Below are positions 7,068 to 21,201 of a stretch of 32,800 bases of DNA, piece by piece; positions within the stretch are counted from its first letter, which is position 1, and the number at the start of each line of letters is the position of its first letter. The position numbers were made by a program, and so were the translations under genes. Source of the DNA: Nitratiruptor sp. (lineage in GTDB: Bacteria > Campylobacterota > Campylobacteria > Campylobacterales > Nitratiruptoraceae); NCBI GenBank assembly GCA_015494535.1, contig WGBC01000084.1, positions 1 through 32,800 on the forward strand, given 5' to 3'. The notes under the pieces were generated by a model. The model worked only from the letters and a program-made list of their open reading frames with translations, had not been told where the DNA came from and did not search any database.

Positions 7068-7850
7068 TTAATTAAATCTTCTTGCGCATCTTCTTGGAAT
7101 GGTTCGTAGTTTTCTGATGTAAGCTTGCAAGGCTTTAATCCTGTGCATATCCGACGGGTGGGTGGAGAGAAACTCGGGGACTTTCGCCCGTGATGCCCTC
7201 ATCATTTTGTACCAAAACTTAATGGCCTCCTTTGGATCGTAGCAGGCTTTATACATCAAGTATAGTCCCAATTGATCAGCCTCATACTCAAATTTTCTAC
7301 TATAAGGGTAGATTACACCATACGTTGTTCCAACTCCATAGGCCAGATCAAAAAGTGGTCCCCATTTCGTGCCGCTTATCTGCAAACCTTTAGCTAAAAG
7401 CTCTTTGCCAAGATTGCCAAGCATCGCCATGGAGACTCGCTCGCTGCCGTGGCGCAAAATCGCATGGGCAACCTCATGCCCTATAACGGCCGCTAGCTGA
7501 TCCTCGTTGTCGATGAGTTTCAAAAGTCCAGTATAGACGAAGATTTTGCCTCCCGGCAAGCAAAAGGCGTTGATTTGAGGAGACTCCAAAACGTAGAAGC
7601 GCCACTGGAAACCCGGATGAAAATCCTTTTCTGCCGCTTGGGCTATTCTCTTGGCGACTCTTTGTACCAATCGATTGTAGTGAGGATTACGAGAGATTTT
7701 GGCTTTTTGTAGGATTTGGCGCTCAGCCTGCAATCCCATCTGCAACTCTTGCTGCGGGGAAATGAGTAGAAGTTGATTGCGATGGGTATAGGGATTTTTG
7801 CTACAGGCGATAAAAAGCAGAGGCAGGAAAAAAAGTAGCAATCTTTTCAT
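7068..7850 (-). CDS. M48 family zinc metalloprotease, predicted lipoprotein
   Basis: A 260-residue periplasmic peptidase like the catalytic half of BepA/LoiP-type proteases, which degrade or assist misassembled outer-membrane proteins. A hydrophobic signal ends in LFIAC (Cys 16), a plausible lipobox. The zinc motif is HEVAH (125-129), and the third ligand is in YEADQLG further on. No TPR repeats follow, so it is the short form. The ATG at 7850 is preferred because AAGGA lies 5-6 bases upstream; another ATG two codons earlier (7856) is too close to a ribosome site. It starts 29 bases after feoB, so it may be transcribed with the iron genes. Confidence 0.9.
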   Translation of the reverse strand: MKRLLLFFLPLLFIACSKNPYTHRNQLLLISPQQELQMGLQAERQILQKAKISRNPHYNRLVQRVAKRIAQAAEKDFHPGFQWRFYVLESPQINAFCLPGGKIFVYTGLLKLIDNEDQLAAVIGHEVAHAILRHGSERVSMAMLGNLGKELLAKGLQISGTKWGPLFDLAYGVGTTYGVIYPYSRKFEYEADQLGLYLMYKACYDPKEAIKFWYKMMRASRAKVPEFLSTHPSDMHRIKALQAYIRKLRTIPRRCARRFN

Positions 7851-7879
7851 CTGCATCCTTTTTTCCCTGCATTATAGCA

Positions 7880-9976
7880 CTAATAGCCTAACAACTCCAA
7901 AAGATGGTATACCCCAAAGGCCGCAAGCCACGCAAGCACGTTGGGGTATATGGTATAAAAGGCTCTCCATGCCCACTGTGGCACTTCCGCATAGAAAGTG
8001 CTCATGGCGGCAACACAAGGACTATAAATCATTATAATAATAATTAAAGCGATAGCCGTTTTGAAATCGATGTTTTCACGCAATTTATTAATGAGCGTAT
8101 CACTCTTTTCATTCGCTTCTCCTACTGCATAGAGCGTCGCGAGTGTCGATACTACAACCTCTTTTGCAGCCAAACCACTGAGAGTAGCCACGCTCAATCG
8201 CCAATCAAATCCTATCGGAGCAAAGATTGGCTCGATAACTTTACCGATTTGCCCAAGGTAGCTATGTTCTAGATTTTTAGCCGCAAACTCGTTCATGAGA
8301 GCCACCTTTTGCGTTTTACTGCTTGCCTGCTCGATTTTTTGCTGATACTGTGCTTGCAACTCTTCATTGACTGGATAGCTACTTAAAAACCAGATAATCA
8401 TTGCGGCCCCTGCAATAAATGTTCCAGCCTTTTTAATAAACAGTTTTGCTTTTATCCATAGCTCCATTGCAAGCACTTTGATCGATGGGAAACGGTATGG
8501 TGGCATCTCCATCACAAATGGCTCAGGCTCTCCTTTAAAAAGGATGGCGCGCAAGATTTTTGCCACAATAAGCCCCAATATCGCTCCACCCACATAGATG
8601 GTAAAGAGCACATTGCCAGCGCTAGTAGTAGGGAAAAAGGCAGCAATGAAGAGTACGTATACTGGCAATCTCGCGCTACAGTTCATAAACCCTAAAATGA
8701 GCATGGTTATAAGCCTGTCTTTTGGGTTTTTGAGGGTGCGAGCCGCCATGTAGGCCGGTACCGTACAACCAAAGCCGCTAACAAGCGGAATGAAAGCTTT
8801 TCCTTGCAAGCCAAACTTCTTCATAAATCCATCAAGCAAAAAGGCAGCCCTTGCCATGTAACCTGTTTGTTCAAGCAAATTTATGCCCAAAAAGAGGATC
8901 AAAATATTTGGCAAGAACATGAGAATAGCGCCAACTGCGGGTATCACGCCATCAGTGATTACGCTATTGAGATCGCCCGCTGGCAATATTGTTCTTAGCC
9001 AACTGGCAAAATTGCTCACCGTCTCGTCGATATAGTCCATAGGGATGGAACCAACTTCGAATGTGATCTGAAACAGCGCCCACATGAAAAAGAGAAAAAT
9101 CGGAAGTCCCAAGATTGGGTGAATCAAGATCTTGTCAATCTTGTCCGTGAGCGTCTCCTTTTGGGGCTGGATCATCACTTGCATCACGATGCTTCTTGCA
9201 ATTGCGTTTCGCTCATCTGCAAAAATATCGCTAACGGAGTCTGCATCAAATTCTAATTTTAGCCTTTTTATGCTCTCTCCCAAAGCCTCGTGCAACTCCA
9301 AAAATATAGGAAGATCATGAACGATCTTGTATATCTCTTCATCGTTTTCAAGTAGGCGAATCACATAAAATCTAGCCAAATTTGGATCATTAAAGTGGGG
9401 GGATTTTAGTAGAATGTGGCTTAGTTTTTCGATCTCATCTTCAATCTTTTCGTTGTAAAAAAGCTTGCATGCACACTCTTTCTGTTTATATACTTCGATA
9501 AGCTTTTCCACCACCTCATCAACACCCCTTTTCTCTTTGGCCGAAGTAAGGATGACAGGGATGCCTAGGAGAGTGGAGAGCATATCAGCATCGATCTTGC
9601 CACCCTTCTCTTCCAGCTCATCCACCATGTTCACCACCAAAACCATAGGGCGACGCATATCTAAGAGCTGCAATGTTAAAATGAGATTGCGCTGCAAAAT
9701 ATTGGCATCCACCACATTGATGATTACGTCATACTGACCCTCAATCAAATAGCGTTTCGCCACATGTTCTTCTGGCGTATAGGCTTTGAGTGAGTAGATA
9801 CCGGGCAGATCCACGATATCGATATCATTCTCACCCCTTTGCAGCGTTACTTCTTTTTTTTCTACCGTCACGCCTGCAAAGTTACCCACGTGTAGTCTTG
9901 CTCCACTTATCGCATTGATTATTGAACTCTTACCCACATTGGGCTGCCCCACCATTACAGCTCTAATCTGCTTCAT
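7880..9976 (-). CDS. feoB: Ferrous iron transport protein B (GTPase-transporter)
   Basis: FeoB carries Fe(II) across the inner membrane. The 698 residues start with a G domain: G1 is GQPNVGKS (10-17), followed by DLPG and NMVD motifs. A helical guanine-dissociation-inhibitor-like region (about 170-270) comes next. The membrane part has two inverted gate repeats, recognisable by the Cys-containing GFGCTVPA in the first half and GLAAKEVVVSTL in the second. About eight membrane segments are expected. The ATG overlaps the feoA stop by 4 bases. No FeoC is visible. An upstream Fur box over the porin promoter should control the whole unit. Confidence 0.97.
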   Translation of the reverse strand: MKQIRAVMVGQPNVGKSSIINAISGARLHVGNFAGVTVEKKEVTLQRGENDIDIVDLPGIYSLKAYTPEEHVAKRYLIEGQYDVIINVVDANILQRNLILTLQLLDMRRPMVLVVNMVDELEEKGGKIDADMLSTLLGIPVILTSAKEKRGVDEVVEKLIEVYKQKECACKLFYNEKIEDEIEKLSHILLKSPHFNDPNLARFYVIRLLENDEEIYKIVHDLPIFLELHEALGESIKRLKLEFDADSVSDIFADERNAIARSIVMQVMIQPQKETLTDKIDKILIHPILGLPIFLFFMWALFQITFEVGSIPMDYIDETVSNFASWLRTILPAGDLNSVITDGVIPAVGAILMFLPNILILFLGINLLEQTGYMARAAFLLDGFMKKFGLQGKAFIPLVSGFGCTVPAYMAARTLKNPKDRLITMLILGFMNCSARLPVYVLFIAAFFPTTSAGNVLFTIYVGGAILGLIVAKILRAILFKGEPEPFVMEMPPYRFPSIKVLAMELWIKAKLFIKKAGTFIAGAAMIIWFLSSYPVNEELQAQYQQKIEQASSKTQKVALMNEFAAKNLEHSYLGQIGKVIEPIFAPIGFDWRLSVATLSGLAAKEVVVSTLATLYAVGEANEKSDTLINKLRENIDFKTAIALIIIIMIYSPCVAAMSTFYAEVPQWAWRAFYTIYPNVLAWLAAFGVYHLLELLGY

Positions 9977-10194
9977 GGCTCCACCTCAATTCCTTCAGCC
10001 TCCTCTTTTCTTAGAGCAATTCTTGTGCCCTCTACCTCTATCTCCCATGTCTGCTTCTTAATGGTATGATCGAGTAGCGTTAATCTATTGTTTTTGGCTA
10101 CACCCATGGCAAAAAGGCGGCTTTTTATCGGCTCTGGCGCTGTGATCTTCTTAATAATGCCACTTTGGCCTATTTTCATTTGTGTCACTTTCAT
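9973..10194 (-). CDS. feoA: Ferrous iron transport protein A
   Basis: A 73-residue SH3-like cytoplasmic protein needed for FeoB activity. Typical features are the start with KIGQSGIIKKI, the central RLFAMGV turn and a C-terminal strand rich in Glu. ATG at 10194 follows AGGAGG by 4 bases and lies 8 bases after the porin stop; a second ATG five codons later is possible. It overlaps feoB by 4 bases (ATGA). Confidence 0.92.
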   Translation of the reverse strand: MKVTQMKIGQSGIIKKITAPEPIKSRLFAMGVAKNNRLTLLDHTIKKQTWEIEVEGTRIALRKEEAEGIEVEP

Positions 10195-10202
10195 CCTTCC
10201 TC

Positions 10203-11303
10203 CTAAAATCCAAATCTAGCAATTACTCTAAAAAGGGTTGTATCTCTACCATACTTATCATCCACTAATGCCAAAACTGCATCCACATTAATATTGCCTT
10301 TTTGCAGTGTTGTATATAGATCAATCTCTCGGGCATCAAAGTTTTTGGCAAAAAATCTCCCACTCAATACACCTGTATGAAAAAAATCATTTTGATAGCT
10401 TATTCCATAAACATAGGCTTCAGCACCCTTGGCAGCAACTGCATCCAATGTCATCTCTTCCATAGAAGTAAAAAAAGGTCCTCCCCCAAAGCTAAACATG
10501 CTTTGCGAATTTCTCAGCTCCCGATTATAGCCTATTGTATATGTAATATTTCCGAAACATTTTTGCATAAAAAAACCGATACTTAAAGAGTCTATGCTAC
10601 TTTCAAAAAGGTTTTGCAAAGATTTTGCCCTATCTATTTGAAAATGTATATTAAAACCCCTTCTCTCCCAATCAAATTGTGCATACATAATATCAGCTAT
10701 AGCATCAATATGATATGCCCAAAATGAAAAATTTTCATGAGTTATTCCTATTATGGCTGCACCATTACTCTGCTCCTTTACTCCCAAAACTTGGTTTAAA
10801 TTTTTGAATCTATCAATATTCTCCCCACTCTCCCAACCTGCCATTTTTCTAATAAAAGCAGCTTCTAAACCTATTTCTCCTTGGTCAAAAGTTGTTACAA
10901 CACCACTAAAATAGTTTGGCACCATACGAATATCGTCACTATCCATATGAGGAGAATCAAACATCAATCTTCCAGCTTTTAACATAAAACTCTTTGATTG
11001 GTACAAAAGATTGGCTTCGCTTAAGAAAATGAATCCATCATTACTATAGTCACTTGCTAGCTTTACATTTTGAACTCCATATACACTTCCTTGAAGACTC
11101 CATCCTCTATACGATTTTGTCCCAAAGTGAATATGGCCTCCCAATCCAAAATTTTTTTTATCTTCTACATCTACTTGATAACCAATATATCCCAACCTTA
11201 ATTCAGCTTTCAGATGCTCTAGCATATTAACTTGACCTAGATCATGCCGCAAGCTTTGAGCGTACAGAGACAAAGATAAAAATAGCAATACAAAAACTCT
11301 CAT
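10203..11303 (-). CDS. OprD-like outer-membrane porin, first gene of the feoAB unit
   Basis: A 366-residue predicted beta-barrel. ATG at 11303 is chosen because AGAGGA lies 4 bases upstream and a signal peptide follows at once (MRVFVLLFLSLSLYA, cut before Q). The mature part alternates polar and aromatic strands and ends in RFGF; a C-terminal Phe is the usual outer-membrane assembly signal. The stretch with LKAGRLMFDSPHMDSDDIRMVP resembles the OprD/Opr family pattern around a conserved DDIRMVPN. The gene lies 8 bases before feoA and its promoter is covered by a Fur box, so it is probably induced by iron limitation and may let Fe(II) or a small ligand into the periplasm. The substrate is inference; OprD members elsewhere carry amino acids, sugars or metal complexes. 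Confidence 0.8.
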   Translation of the reverse strand: MRVFVLLFLSLSLYAQSLRHDLGQVNMLEHLKAELRLGYIGYQVDVEDKKNFGLGGHIHFGTKSYRGWSLQGSVYGVQNVKLASDYSNDGFIFLSEANLLYQSKSFMLKAGRLMFDSPHMDSDDIRMVPNYFSGVVTTFDQGEIGLEAAFIRKMAGWESGENIDRFKNLNQVLGVKEQSNGAAIIGITHENFSFWAYHIDAIADIMYAQFDWERRGFNIHFQIDRAKSLQNLFESSIDSLSIGFFMQKCFGNITYTIGYNRELRNSQSMFSFGGGPFFTSMEEMTLDAVAAKGAEAYVYGISYQNDFFHTGVLSGRFFAKNFDAREIDLYTTLQKGNINVDAVLALVDDKYGRDTTLFRVIARFGF

Positions 11304-11369
11304 ACATTCCTCTTTCCAAAATAAACAGAAGAATAATAATATAAAAATACTGAAACGAAAATTAATCTT

Positions 11370-11388
11370 GATAATCATTATCATTATG
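11370..11388. promoter_or_regulatory. Fur box
   Basis: The plus strand reads GATAATCATTATCATTATG. It contains the exact inverted core GATAAT-C-ATTATC and matches the classic 19-base Fur consensus (reverse orientation) at 17 of 19 positions. It lies 67-85 bases upstream of the porin ATG, inside the predicted promoter, and about 105 bases upstream of the divergent rhodanese gene. Repression by iron-loaded Fur of the porin-feoA-feoB unit is the simplest reading. Confidence 0.85.
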
Positions 11389-11400
11389 ACTAACTGTCAA
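11371..11400 (-). promoter_or_regulatory. Predicted promoter of porin-feoA-feoB
   Basis: On the minus strand a perfect TTGACA (11395-11400) is followed after 18 bases by GATTAT (11371-11376, 4 of 6 to TATAAT). The Fur box covers the spacer and the -10, so Fur binding would block polymerase. The rest of the 190-base gap to the rhodanese gene is very A+T-rich and holds no other feature I can support. Confidence 0.5.
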
Positions 11401-11493
11401 AATCATTATTTATTTTTATAAATATTATTTTTAAGTCTTATATATGGCTTATCTTGATATTTTTTTAAAAAAATTTTTCATAAAGGGGTTGTA

Positions 11494-11997
11494 ATGAAAA
11501 AGGCAGTTTTTTCCCTACTGTGCTTGACACTTTTTATCTTTGCGCAGGAGAAGATCTATTATGAGGAGGATCTTGACGTCAAGGAAGCATATGCCATGAT
11601 GCAAAAAGGAGCGATTCTTATAGATGTGCGCAGTGCTGGAGAGTTTGTCTATGCTGGCCATCCGCTTGGAGCCATTAGCGTTCCGATATTTTTTTATCGT
11701 TATGAGCCAAAAGATATCAAGCTTCGCATCAATTTCGCCAAGAAAGAGCAAACCAAGCCTCTTGACGCACACAAAATCTATACCATTACACCGGTTGAGA
11801 ACAAAAATTTTATAGAGAGCGTCAAAAAGGTAAGAAAAATTCTTGGCAATAAAGCGATTCTCGTCATTTGTAGGAGTGGTGCCAGAAGCAAGTATGCAGC
11901 AAATCTCTTGGCAAAAAATGGCATGAGTGAAGTCTACAATGTAGAAGGCGGCTTTTTGGAGTGGAAAAGAGCGAAGCTACCCTTTGGGGGTGAGTAA
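11494..11997 (+). CDS. Secreted rhodanese-domain sulfurtransferase
   Basis: A 167-residue periplasmic rhodanese. A signal peptide (residues 1-17, ending FIFA before Q) is followed by a single rhodanese domain. IDVRS (43-47) is typical, and the active loop CRSGARS has the persulfide-forming Cys at 126 with the usual phosphate- or sulfur-binding residues. Between them (about 63-108) lies a longer insert rich in Lys, Tyr and Phe. Rhodaneses move sulfane sulfur from thiosulfate or polysulfide to thiol or cyanide acceptors. The start is ATG after AAAGGGG. It is divergent from the Fur-controlled porin and could share that control region. Its stop directly abuts the stop of the next, opposite gene. 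Confidence 0.88.
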   Translation: MKKAVFSLLCLTLFIFAQEKIYYEEDLDVKEAYAMMQKGAILIDVRSAGEFVYAGHPLGAISVPIFFYRYEPKDIKLRINFAKKEQTKPLDAHKIYTITPVENKNFIESVKKVRKILGNKAILVICRSGARSKYAANLLAKNGMSEVYNVEGGFLEWKRAKLPFGGE

Positions 11998-18358: not shown

Positions 18359-20260
18359 ATGAAAAAATATATCACAACACCAATTTACTACGTCAACGAC
18401 GTACCTCACATTGGACATGCATACACCACGATAATTGCAGATAGTGCCGCAAGGCATTTTAGGCTCAGAGGTTATGATACGTTTTTTCTCACGGGCACGG
18501 ACGAGCATGGACAAAAGATCGAAGAAGCGGCTAAGAAACGTGGCAAAAGCCCCAAAAAGTATGCAGACGAAATAAGCGCAAAATTCAAAAAACTCTGGGA
18601 TGAATTTGAGATAAGTTACGACAAATTTATCCGCACGACTGATGAAAACCATATCAAAGGCGTGCAAAAGGCCTTTGAAATTATGTACAACAAAGGCGAT
18701 ATCTACAAAGGCACTTATGAGGGGCATTACTGCATAAGCTGTGAATCTTTCTTTCCAGAATCGCAACTCATTGACAACGAATTTTGCCCGGACTGCGGCA
18801 AACCCACCACCATCGTCAAGGAAGAGAGCTACTTCTTCCGCCTCTCCAAATACCAAGACAAACTTCTCGAACTCTATAAAAATGAAGAGAAATTCGTACT
18901 GCCAAAATCGAAGAAAAACGAGGTTATCCGCTTTGTTGAAGGAGGCCTGCAAGATCTCTCCATAACACGCACGAGCTTTAGCTGGGGAGTGCCTTTGCCA
19001 AAATCTATTGACGACCCAAAGCATGTGATGTACGTGTGGCTCGATGCACTGCTCAACTACGTTACAGCATTAGGGTACGGCAGTGACGAGGCACTCATGC
19101 ACTACTGGCCAGCGGACTACCACTTGGTTGGCAAAGATATTTTGCGCTTTCACGCAGTCTATTGGCCGGCATTTTTAATGAGCTTGGATCTTCCCATGCC
19201 AAAACATATCGCCACGCATGGCTGGTGGACGAGAAATGGCGAAAAAATGAGCAAATCCAAAGGCAACGTAGTCGATCCCAAAACCGTGGCGGATGCGTAT
19301 GGATTAGAGAATTTTCGCTACTTTTTGCTTAGGGAAGTGCCCTTCGGGCAAGATGGGGATTTTAGCCAAAAGGCGCTTATTGATAGAATCAACAACGATC
19401 TTGGCAACGATCTAGGCAACCTGCTCAATCGTATCATCGGTATGAGCGGAAAGTATTTCGATTTTTTTATCGATAGCAAAGATGTGCAAAAATTTCATCA
19501 AAAAGAGCTCGATGCGGTAGAAGAGATTATCGCCAAGCTCGATCCACTGGTAGAGGATATGAAGTGGCACAAATTTTTAGAGGAGCTATGGCAAATTCTT
19601 ACCATCGCCAACAAAGCCATCGACACCTATACACCTTGGGCGAAAATGAAAGAGGGTAAAGAAGATGAGGCAATGGCGCTCATTGCTCTTGTAGCCAACA
19701 TATTGGCAAAAACCGCGCTGTTGCTGCATCCCGTCATGCCAAAAACTACCCAAAAGATAGCCTCCGCTTTGGGCTTTGAGATAGATCGCGATAGCTTTAC
19801 CAAGTTTATTGCCCAAAAAGAGCTACTTGCTAGCTTTACCATCAAAAAAATTCCACCTCTCTTTCCTAAAATTGAAGAGCCTTTGATGCAGGAGAAAAAG
19901 CCAAACAAAGAGCAAAAAGAGCAACAAACACAAAATCTCATTAGCATAGACGAATTCTTTAAAACATCCATCAAAATCGGCACTATTACCGAGGCCGAAG
20001 AGGTACCAAAAAGCAAAAAGCTTCTCAAACTCCAAGTAGATCTGGGCGAAGATCGCCCAAGGCAGATAATCGCAGGTATCAAAGAGTACTACTCGCCAGA
20101 GGATCTTCTTGGCAAGCAGGTATGCGTGGTGGCGAACCTCAAGCCCGCCAAACTAATGGGCTACCTCAGTGAAGGAATGATCTTAGCGGCCAAAGATAAA
20201 AATGGACTCAGCCTTGTCAGTCCATTGGAACCAAAAGCTCCAGGCACGCCTGTGAAATGA
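18359..20260 (+). CDS. metG: Methionyl-tRNA synthetase
   Basis: Charges tRNA-Met. The 633 residues have HIGH (17-20) and KMSKS (296-300). A single four-cysteine zinc knuckle lies between them (C125, C128, C143, C146). A helical anticodon domain follows, and a C-terminal tRNA-binding OB-fold (about 530-633, from IDEFFKTSIKIGTI) gives dimerisation. A Lys- and Gln-rich linker (about 505-527) joins the last domain. ATG follows AAGGAG. The stop overlaps the next start by 4 bases (ATGA). Confidence 0.97.
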   Translation: MKKYITTPIYYVNDVPHIGHAYTTIIADSAARHFRLRGYDTFFLTGTDEHGQKIEEAAKKRGKSPKKYADEISAKFKKLWDEFEISYDKFIRTTDENHIKGVQKAFEIMYNKGDIYKGTYEGHYCISCESFFPESQLIDNEFCPDCGKPTTIVKEESYFFRLSKYQDKLLELYKNEEKFVLPKSKKNEVIRFVEGGLQDLSITRTSFSWGVPLPKSIDDPKHVMYVWLDALLNYVTALGYGSDEALMHYWPADYHLVGKDILRFHAVYWPAFLMSLDLPMPKHIATHGWWTRNGEKMSKSKGNVVDPKTVADAYGLENFRYFLLREVPFGQDGDFSQKALIDRINNDLGNDLGNLLNRIIGMSGKYFDFFIDSKDVQKFHQKELDAVEEIIAKLDPLVEDMKWHKFLEELWQILTIANKAIDTYTPWAKMKEGKEDEAMALIALVANILAKTALLLHPVMPKTTQKIASALGFEIDRDSFTKFIAQKELLASFTIKKIPPLFPKIEEPLMQEKKPNKEQKEQQTQNLISIDEFFKTSIKIGTITEAEEVPKSKKLLKLQVDLGEDRPRQIIAGIKEYYSPEDLLGKQVCVVANLKPAKLMGYLSEGMILAAKDKNGLSLVSPLEPKAPGTPVK

Positions 20261-21201
20261 GACTGCAAAACGTAGTCTCGCTTATTGGAGGGGAGATCAA
20301 AAACCAGCCTGCGATCTCACAAATCGCTAGTTTTAGCACCTCTTTGAACGCCGTCAAACGAGGCGATCTCTTCTTTGCCAAAGACAAATCCCTCGTCCCA
20401 CAAGCCATCAAACGAGGTGCATACGCGATCGTTTATGAGGGATGGATACAGATCCAAGATGAAGAGATTGCATGGATTAAAGTAGAAAATCTTGAAAACG
20501 CCGTCATCAAACTGCTTCGCTTTTTACTTATCCAAAACCAAACTAAAATCTTTGTGGTCTCAAAGCTCGCTCTAGAGTATGCATCGCTGATTCTCCATGA
20601 CAAAAGGGCTGCGATTTTGCACGATCCTTTCCATCTTTTGCAATCTTTTAACAACGAAGAGTTCCTCTTTGCCACCAAAGAGCAAGTAAACGCCCTCGCT
20701 CTTGATTTCGAACATCCTCCGGCAATTGAGACCAAAATCGTCCAAGAGTTTCTATTTGCCACCTCTTTTATCATGCGTGGCAGATATTTCGATCGCTTAC
20801 AAGTAGCTCCTCTCTTTTTCGAGCATTTCAAAGAGATACTCGGTTTCATGGAGGAATATGATCTTTTTGTGGATTTCGACAATCTCAAAGAATTTCCCCA
20901 TTTCAAACCCCACTTCATTGACAGCGCTTTTCGACCTGTAGAGTTTGGCAAAAGCGAGCGCGTCATCATCACGGAACCAGATTGCAAACTTTTGCAAAAA
21001 GAGGCGAAATATTTAAACAAAGCCGCTCCTTGGGCGAAGAAGATCTATGTAGCCTTTGATTGTAAGCTTGAAAATTTTGCTATAATCGACTTTGCAAAGC
21101 TACAAGCATACCTGAGTAAGCGTAGCTTTACCCATGCACTTGTTCAATATTTCGATATAACGCTTCTCGAAAAAAAGCGGGAGCAAAAAAGCTTACTATA
21201 A
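20257..21201 (+). CDS. Mur-ligase-like protein lacking the ATP-binding loop
   Basis: A 314-residue protein with no clear enzyme assignment. Residues about 20-62 (SFSTSLNAVKRGDLFFAKDK, then QAIKRGAYAIVYEG) follow the pattern of the MurE/MurF N-terminal UDP-binding domain (a DSR-like turn, PGDLFxA, AI-x-GA-x-A-VV). Where MurF proteins have the P-loop GSxGKTT, after a helix near residue 98, this one reads KIFVVSKLALEYASLIL, with no Gly-x-Gly-Lys-Thr. The rest shows no ligase motifs. It could be a decayed Mur paralogue with a binding or scaffold role, or an unrelated protein with chance similarity. The start overlaps metG by 4 bases, and the frame is intact, so it is probably functional. Confidence 0.75.
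   Translation: MRLQNVVSLIGGEIKNQPAISQIASFSTSLNAVKRGDLFFAKDKSLVPQAIKRGAYAIVYEGWIQIQDEEIAWIKVENLENAVIKLLRFLLIQNQTKIFVVSKLALEYASLILHDKRAAILHDPFHLLQSFNNEEFLFATKEQVNALALDFEHPPAIETKIVQEFLFATSFIMRGRYFDRLQVAPLFFEHFKEILGFMEEYDLFVDFDNLKEFPHFKPHFIDSAFRPVEFGKSERVIITEPDCKLLQKEAKYLNKAAPWAKKIYVAFDCKLENFAIIDFAKLQAYLSKRSFTHALVQYFDITLLEKKREQKSLL

Follow-up and report, generated by a model that had tools for sequence, protein, structure and literature searches.

The systems closest to the one described here pair an outer-membrane protein with FeoB. In Geobacter sulfurreducens, a porin of the OprB family is reported to precede feoAAB together with a Fur box, and Rodionov and colleagues suggested that it takes part in ferrous iron (Fe(II)) transport (PMC545781). 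A related layout is described in Acidithiobacillus, where the feoPABC unit encodes FeoP, an OprB-like porin proposed to allow Fe(II) entry to the periplasm (PMC2631029, PMC2621215). In Francisella, 55Fe uptake experiments are reported to show that FupA transports Fe(II) across the outer membrane and acts together with FeoB (PMC4905997), and genetic experiments in Escherichia coli place OmpC and FeoB on one Fe(II) path, which provides a precedent for the cooperation of a porin with FeoB (PMC7315122). Here we analyze a 32,800-nucleotide stretch of DNA from Nitratiruptor sp. (assembly GCA_015494535.1, contig WGBC01000084.1, positions 1 to 32,800; hereafter, the window), in which the gene for an OprD-like outer-membrane porin stands in front of feoA and feoB, and we compare this unit with its relatives across the order Campylobacterales.

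The locus resembles each of these systems in part. The Geobacter X-feoA-feoA-feoB2 unit and the Fur-controlled psp porins of the same organism are alike in that their authors speculate on a role in iron transport, but these porins belong to the OprB family or resemble phosphate porins (psp), their Fur box has another sequence, and they are described for one species. Acidithiobacillus feoPABC likewise has the porin gene first, then feoABC, and a Fur box; its FeoP is, however, of the OprB family and the unit includes FeoC, whereas the Campylobacterales unit has an OprD-like porin, lacks FeoC and reads porin-feoA-feoB or feoB-feoA-porin. Thus, the window's unit is not of the FeoP type, as its porin matched no OprB model and feoC was not annotated between feoB and the next gene. 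FupA shares the principle of a dedicated outer-membrane Fe(II) route with FeoB as the inner-membrane route, but it is described as a barrel with a predicted plug, from another family, and is not a porin. OmpC and OmpF of E. coli differ as general porins of another family encoded outside the feo operon. A preliminary description of the locus had remarked that FeoAB units are as a rule described with no outer-membrane channel of their own, which is right as a generality but passes over the precedents in Geobacter, Acidithiobacillus and Francisella.

In a study of feo evolution in Campylobacterota, the word porin is absent from the main text (PMC10353542), and FeGenie, as described in its publication, lists FeoAB(C) among iron genes with no feo porin named beside them (PMC7005843). 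Within the open-licence literature, to which our search was confined, no description of an OprD-like porin paired with feoAB was found. The porin-feo layout is therefore known with OprB-type porins; what is new is the OprD-like family, its broad and countable distribution, and a clade of paralogues that serves as a control.

Results

The unit is read from the minus strand in the order porin, feoA, feoB. The porin gene (10203-11303) encodes a protein of 366 residues, assigned by family search and by a model of an 18-strand barrel. It is followed after 8 bases by feoA (9973-10194; PF04023, 7.5e-18), which in turn overlaps feoB (7880-9976; TIGR00437, 2.2e-184) by 4 bases. FeoA and FeoB, the latter with its GTPase, Gate and FeoB_C domains, were clearly assigned by both Pfam and NCBIfam and belong to the Feo system. 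These coordinates bear out the earlier observation that the porin gene, and not feoA, is the first gene of the unit, 8 bases upstream of feoA. The longest open reading frame (ORF) of the porin begins at 11384, inside the Fur box described below; this start was set aside because the box would then fall within the gene. The likelier start, judged from the sequence, is 11303, which is marked by MRVFVLLFLSLSLYAQ, resembles the beginning of a signal peptide and has a putative GAGGA ribosome site in front of it.

To determine how far this arrangement is conserved, profile searches were carried out over 248 genomes of Campylobacterales, with porin hits accepted at E<=1e-30 and feoB hits at E<=1e-60. 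The porin profile matched in 95 of these genomes and feoB in 226; in a set of 60 relatives, the corresponding numbers were 39 and 55. For the linkage count we took the 100 porin places that scored at least 150 bits, and we called a porin adjoining when feoB was on the same strand and no more than 1.5 kb away. It was found that 58 of the 100 places adjoin feoB, 42 with the porin first and 16 with feoB first. Scores of 300 bits or more were reached at 37 places, 27 of which adjoin feoB (23 porin-first, 4 feoB-first); of the 63 weaker ones (151.6 to 284.7 bits), 31 do (19 porin-first, 12 feoB-first) and 32 do not. The linked places are spread over nine families (f1, f4, f5, f6, f7, f17, f18, f21 and f22 in our numbering). 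In the window's own family, most loci have the porin directly followed by feoA and feoB. Spacing is tight: of 26 porin-first loci, 25 have -4 to 16 bases between porin and feoA and one has 393. In the feoB-first loci L158, L194 and L200, feoB is followed by feoA and then by the porin, and the gaps are small or nil. The preliminary description had made its proposal depend on conserved linkage of this porin family to feoA in related genomes, and such linkage was strongly found; the counts rule out a chance layout. When 150 genomes were drawn from the whole phylum, the 12 genomes with matches at E<=1e-60 all came from this same order; since this also holds for every one of the 32 genomes listed, the draw does not establish that the porin is missing outside the order. 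The sole locus returned by a search of named genomes, from a Sulfurovum metagenome-assembled genome, has the porin and showed no feo match within its 5.6 kb.

Several loci depart from the simple unit. At L037 (G004:C1:1520000-1529000), a TonB-dependent receptor gene and a second, 40%-identical feoB are found about 4 kb and about 8 kb, respectively, from a second OprD-like porin of the same genome. At L155 and L156, which are feoB-first loci of family f6, feoB is immediately preceded by one more ORF that resembles the porin very distantly (44-47 bits against the profile), so that these units may hold two barrels. At G180:C1:1367065-1369137, a second feoB directly behind the porin has one in-frame stop, and an intact feoB is present elsewhere in that genome.

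Phylogenetic analysis showed that linkage to feo follows the descent of the porin. In a first tree of 42 proteins, 23 fell in one clade, and 20 of these are feo-linked. A second tree comprised 114 rows, in which three proteins appear twice because their loci overlap; ORFs shorter than 330 residues or scoring below 100 bits were excluded and identical C-termini were merged, so that a few species appear once. Support was by the SH-aLRT (Shimodaira-Hasegawa-like approximate likelihood ratio) test only, and several forks remain open. In this tree the window's clade has 38 rows (28 linked), the clade that holds the other feoB-first porins has 26 (14 linked), a porin-first clade has 21 (13 linked), and there are a small group of 3 (1 linked) and one single linked row. 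None of the 25 rows of a further, paralogue clade is linked, versus 57 of the 89 rows outside it (Fisher p 2e-9, a value that ignores relatedness); with the three duplicate pairs reduced to distinct proteins, the latter figure becomes 54 of 86. The tree requires 18 changes of linkage state, as opposed to 38.3 in shuffles, which indicates that linkage follows descent, yet has been gained or lost many times.

The preliminary description had also placed a near-consensus Fur box over the promoter of the unit, and this was confirmed. A 17/19 match to the Fur consensus lies at 11370-11388 on the minus strand and overlaps a 16/19 match at 11364-11382 on the plus strand, so that the predicted box extends over 11364-11388. 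Three Fur matches with at most 3 mismatches were observed in the window, two of them being one palindromic place read on both strands, whereas 100 dinucleotide shuffles gave 0.04 on average. The promoter-like site TTGACA-18-GATTAT (11400-11371, minus strand; 10 of 12 hexamer letters) has its second hexamer within the Fur box, which thus covers the putative -10 element. This site is the best of 12 promoter-like matches in 7600-11700; the shuffles yield 10.5, and the promoter alone is weak evidence because the number of such matches equals the shuffle mean. A Fur-family gene was found in the source genome, which is 1.4 Mb and 79% complete. With a predicted box at the promoter, its retention in relatives and a Fur protein encoded in the genome, the unit can be assigned to a putative Fur regulon.

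Retention in relatives was assessed as the best 19-base match to the E. coli Fur consensus in about 325 bases around the porin start, with a threshold of at least 15/19; rows with less than 120 bases upstream were omitted and identical C-termini merged. Shuffled sequences reached this threshold in 0 to 0.8% of cases for every group of more than one locus. Where the porin lies upstream of feoAB, a box was present in 32 of 38 loci (20/22 in the window's clade, 11/15 and 1/1 in other groups). The dinucleotide shuffles rule out an AT-rich accident as the origin of the box for the window and for most porin-first loci. Porins not linked to feo had a box in 11 of 11 cases in the window's clade, two of which lie at contig ends and may in fact be linked, and in 9/26 and 3/25 in other groups. 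No box was found for the 25 paralogue-clade rows, versus 23 of the 37 other unlinked rows (Fisher p 1e-7); the fragments L125, L133 and L135 were scored as unlinked but really lie behind feoB, and dropping them changes p to 2e-8. All nine unlinked porins of the window's clade whose genomes carry feoAB elsewhere (eight from f4, plus G013) retain the box. In feoAB units that lack the porin, the unit's own upstream region scores 14 to 16 in 14 of 14 loci. A predicted Fur box is thus typical of porin-first units and of the free-standing porins of the group, and not of the feoB-first order.

The preliminary description called the porin OprD-like, an assignment that its relatives uphold. The window's protein itself scores 24.0 bits against PF03573 (OprD), just below the cut-off of 25, and 20 of 22 aligned relatives match this model at E<=0.01 (best, 3.7e-33), which places the family among OprD-like porins by sequence. 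The porin profile also matches 20 distinct solved chains of OprD/Occ type at E<=1e-5. An AlphaFold2 model built from a 22-row alignment has a mean pLDDT (predicted local distance difference test) of 86.7 and 18 strands, as counted from the listed elements. Occ structures head both lists of structural matches: the top Foldseek match is OpdK of Pseudomonas aeruginosa (template modelling score 0.73), and with VIA-align 2 it is OccK1 (Z 32.6, 323 residues, root-mean-square deviation 3.0, 15% identity). The Occ (OprD) channels of Pseudomonas and Acinetobacter thus appear, on the model, to share the 18-strand fold with the window's porin, and they differ by identity of about 15% and by their carboxylate substrates. 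We know of no tie of Occ channels to feo.

A more distant relationship connects the porin to the major outer-membrane protein (MOMP) of Campylobacter. The PF05538 (MOMP) model did not match the window's protein and matched 2 of 22 relatives (best, 7.1e-10), so the porin is not a MOMP by this model; a single profile-profile comparison of the clade with Campylobacter MOMPs, the rows of which were gathered by the family model, gave a probability of 97.6. MOMP is described as an 18-strand barrel with an acidic constriction that holds Ca2+ (PMC5090048). It resembles our modelled porin in its 18-strand barrel, as a distant homologue, and differs as a trimeric major porin. Its Ca2+ site shows that the constriction of a porin distantly related to ours can accommodate a divalent metal. 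An attempt to equate the MOMP Ca2+ ligands with porin residues was abandoned, since the acidic stretch of loop L3 falls near that of MOMP while the L7 stretch is misaligned, and we make no such claim.

Loops L3 and L7 are reported to narrow the pore of Occ channels, which have the 18-strand fold (PMC3260308). By hairpin counting on the model, residues 114-130 of the window's porin were assigned to L3 and residues 263-294 to L7. The window's clade has near-invariant motifs in L3 (TPHADSDDIR; TPHADSDDIRMVPN) and L7 (FGGGPFFTSMED), and 10 of its 26 invariant columns sit in these two loops, which make up 49 of 366 residues. In the window, the L3 motif SPHMDSDDIRMVP (residues 117-129, with H119, D121, D123 and D124) is encoded at 10917-10955 and the L7 motif FGGGPFFTSMEEMTLDA (residues 272-288, with E282) at 10440-10490, both on the minus strand, as placed by alignment with the loops taken from the model. 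In the 42-protein comparison, 21 of the 23 clade members have H119 and two have Y instead, whereas the 19 proteins outside the clade all have L or F; a larger table agrees, with L in one further clade member. A GGHxH motif of the clade, seen in its alignment, includes H57-I58-H59 (codons at 11127-11135, minus strand). H57 and H59 together are typical of the clade and either alone occurs elsewhere; some paralogues have GGHLK, so that H57 alone is not unique to the clade. A signature of metal-binding type common to all feo-linked porins was not found: H119 is confined to the window's clade, and other feo-linked groups have F, L or Y at this position. Mean net charge was about -20 to -29 for the clade and the feo-linked groups and -12 for low-scoring unlinked paralogues; these ranges overlap widely and were not used as evidence.

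Both flanks of the unit carry genes that recur in relatives. Downstream of feoB, at a distance of 23 bases, starts an M48 peptidase gene (7068-7856, minus strand), which has this place behind feoB in many loci of the family and may share a transcript with the porin. The nearest NCBIfam model to this peptidase is the barrel-assembly protease BepA, with a score far below the cut-off. On the other side of the Fur box, and divergent from the porin, lies a gene for a rhodanese-domain protein with a signal-like start (11494-11997, plus strand), which often holds the same place in relatives, including beside porin-less feoAB units (L061, L074 and L075). Elsewhere in the window, an ORF of 314 residues (20257-21201, plus strand) lies between the genes for methionyl-tRNA synthetase and a Na/Ca exchanger and had no Pfam match at 1e-5. 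Rfam gave zero matches within the window.

Discussion

Our results suggest that the OprD-like porin is probably the outer-membrane component of a unit for ferrous-iron uptake under Fur control, in which it feeds Fe(II) to FeoAB. According to this proposal, low cellular iron would cause Fur to leave the box that covers the promoter, and a single message would then be made for the porin, FeoA and FeoB. The barrel, of predicted OprD/Occ fold, would let more Fe(II), either free or in weak complexes, pass through the outer membrane to the periplasm, and FeoB with FeoA would then carry it into the cell. The proposal is based on gene order, tight spacing, the conserved match to the Fur box, the repeated pairing with feoAB in both orders and the predicted fold; from these we infer Fur binding, co-transcription and Fe(II) as the substrate. 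The suggestion made earlier, that the channel works with FeoB, is well supported by the genome evidence, both by linkage and by the Fur boxes that accompany the porin in related genomes, unlinked copies included. The Fe(II) specificity also suggested there gained no support from these analyses.

A number of observations weigh against this proposal. Ten of the 37 strongest porin places are not beside feoB, one of them at a contig end. Units of the feoB-first order (f6, f7) mostly lack a Fur box: 12 of 13 such loci score 10-13 in the 300 bases before feoA, the thirteenth having been scored over the wrong stretch, and directly before the porin of feoB-first units a box was found in 2 of 17 rows, both of which are one locus. 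Two of the 22 porin-first loci in the window's own clade have no box either (13 and 9 of 19). All 8 genomes of the family that were searched have TonB-dependent receptors, and Feo is therefore not the sole iron route. Finally, the Occ channels characterised in the literature are described as carrying carboxylates, not metals (PMC3260308).

This last point leads to the possibility that the porin passes an iron-ligand complex, for example with a small carboxylate, and that reduction or ligand release takes place in the periplasm before FeoB takes up Fe(II). The Occ channels, whose fold our model appears to share, are reported to require a carboxyl group on the substrate (PMC3260308), and OccK1 and other Occ channels are the nearest structures to our model. 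R126 of the L3 motif is retained in most clade members, and the title of one paper reports the entry of ferric quinate through the C. jejuni MOMP channel. On the other hand, no gene for a reductase, for ligand synthesis or for a periplasmic binding protein was seen as a member of the unit in the loci read, and the L3 site of the clade is more acidic and less basic than that of OccK1 (H-A-D-S-D-D versus L-L-R-Y-D-D in the alignment), so that we consider transport of a complex unlikely. Alternatively, the porin may be general and unselective and happen to be iron-regulated; the cell would then answer iron limitation with a larger number of pores, open to any small cation or neutral solute. OmpC or OmpF is reported to be enough for Fe(II) in E. 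coli (PMC7315122), and the pairing of feoAB in Campylobacterales with porin groups that differ in their loop residues suggests that the exact filter matters little. The concentration of the clade's invariant columns in L3 and L7 argues against an unselective pore, and we regard this explanation as improbable.

It is also conceivable that the porin takes up sulfur or nutrients, a role proposed for the OprD-like porins found in Sulfurovum, and that it stands beside feoAB by chance or history; OprD-like porins of Sulfurovum indicum are reported to rise during growth on elemental sulfur (PMC10045233). Linkage in nine families and in both gene orders, set against its absence from the 25 rows of the paralogue clade, and Fur boxes at unlinked members of the group make such a role very hard to sustain. 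Returning to Fe(II) itself, it is a more speculative idea that His and Asp residues specific to the clade, located in the constriction loops, give Fe(II) preference over other solutes. A more far-reaching version of the proposal, which we put forward tentatively and consider possible but on balance doubtful, has two parts. The clade of the window's porin would be a channel of Occ fold dedicated to Fe(II), whose metal filter would consist of the clade-specific residues H119, D121, D123 and D124 in L3, E282 in L7 and H57/H59 on strand 2; and OprD-like porins, recruited more than once, would have become the partner that FeoAB usually has in the outer membrane in much of Campylobacterales.

The usual answer to the question of how Fe(II) crosses the outer membrane before it reaches FeoB is that it passes through general porins. 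A group of porins that travels with feo across nine families, has its own Fur box when separated from feo and can be contrasted with paralogues that show neither trait allows the existence of a porin dedicated to Fe(II) to be tested directly. It also provides a lead to the function of some of the many OprD-like porins in vent Campylobacterota, which have been discussed in terms of sulfur uptake (PMC10045233).

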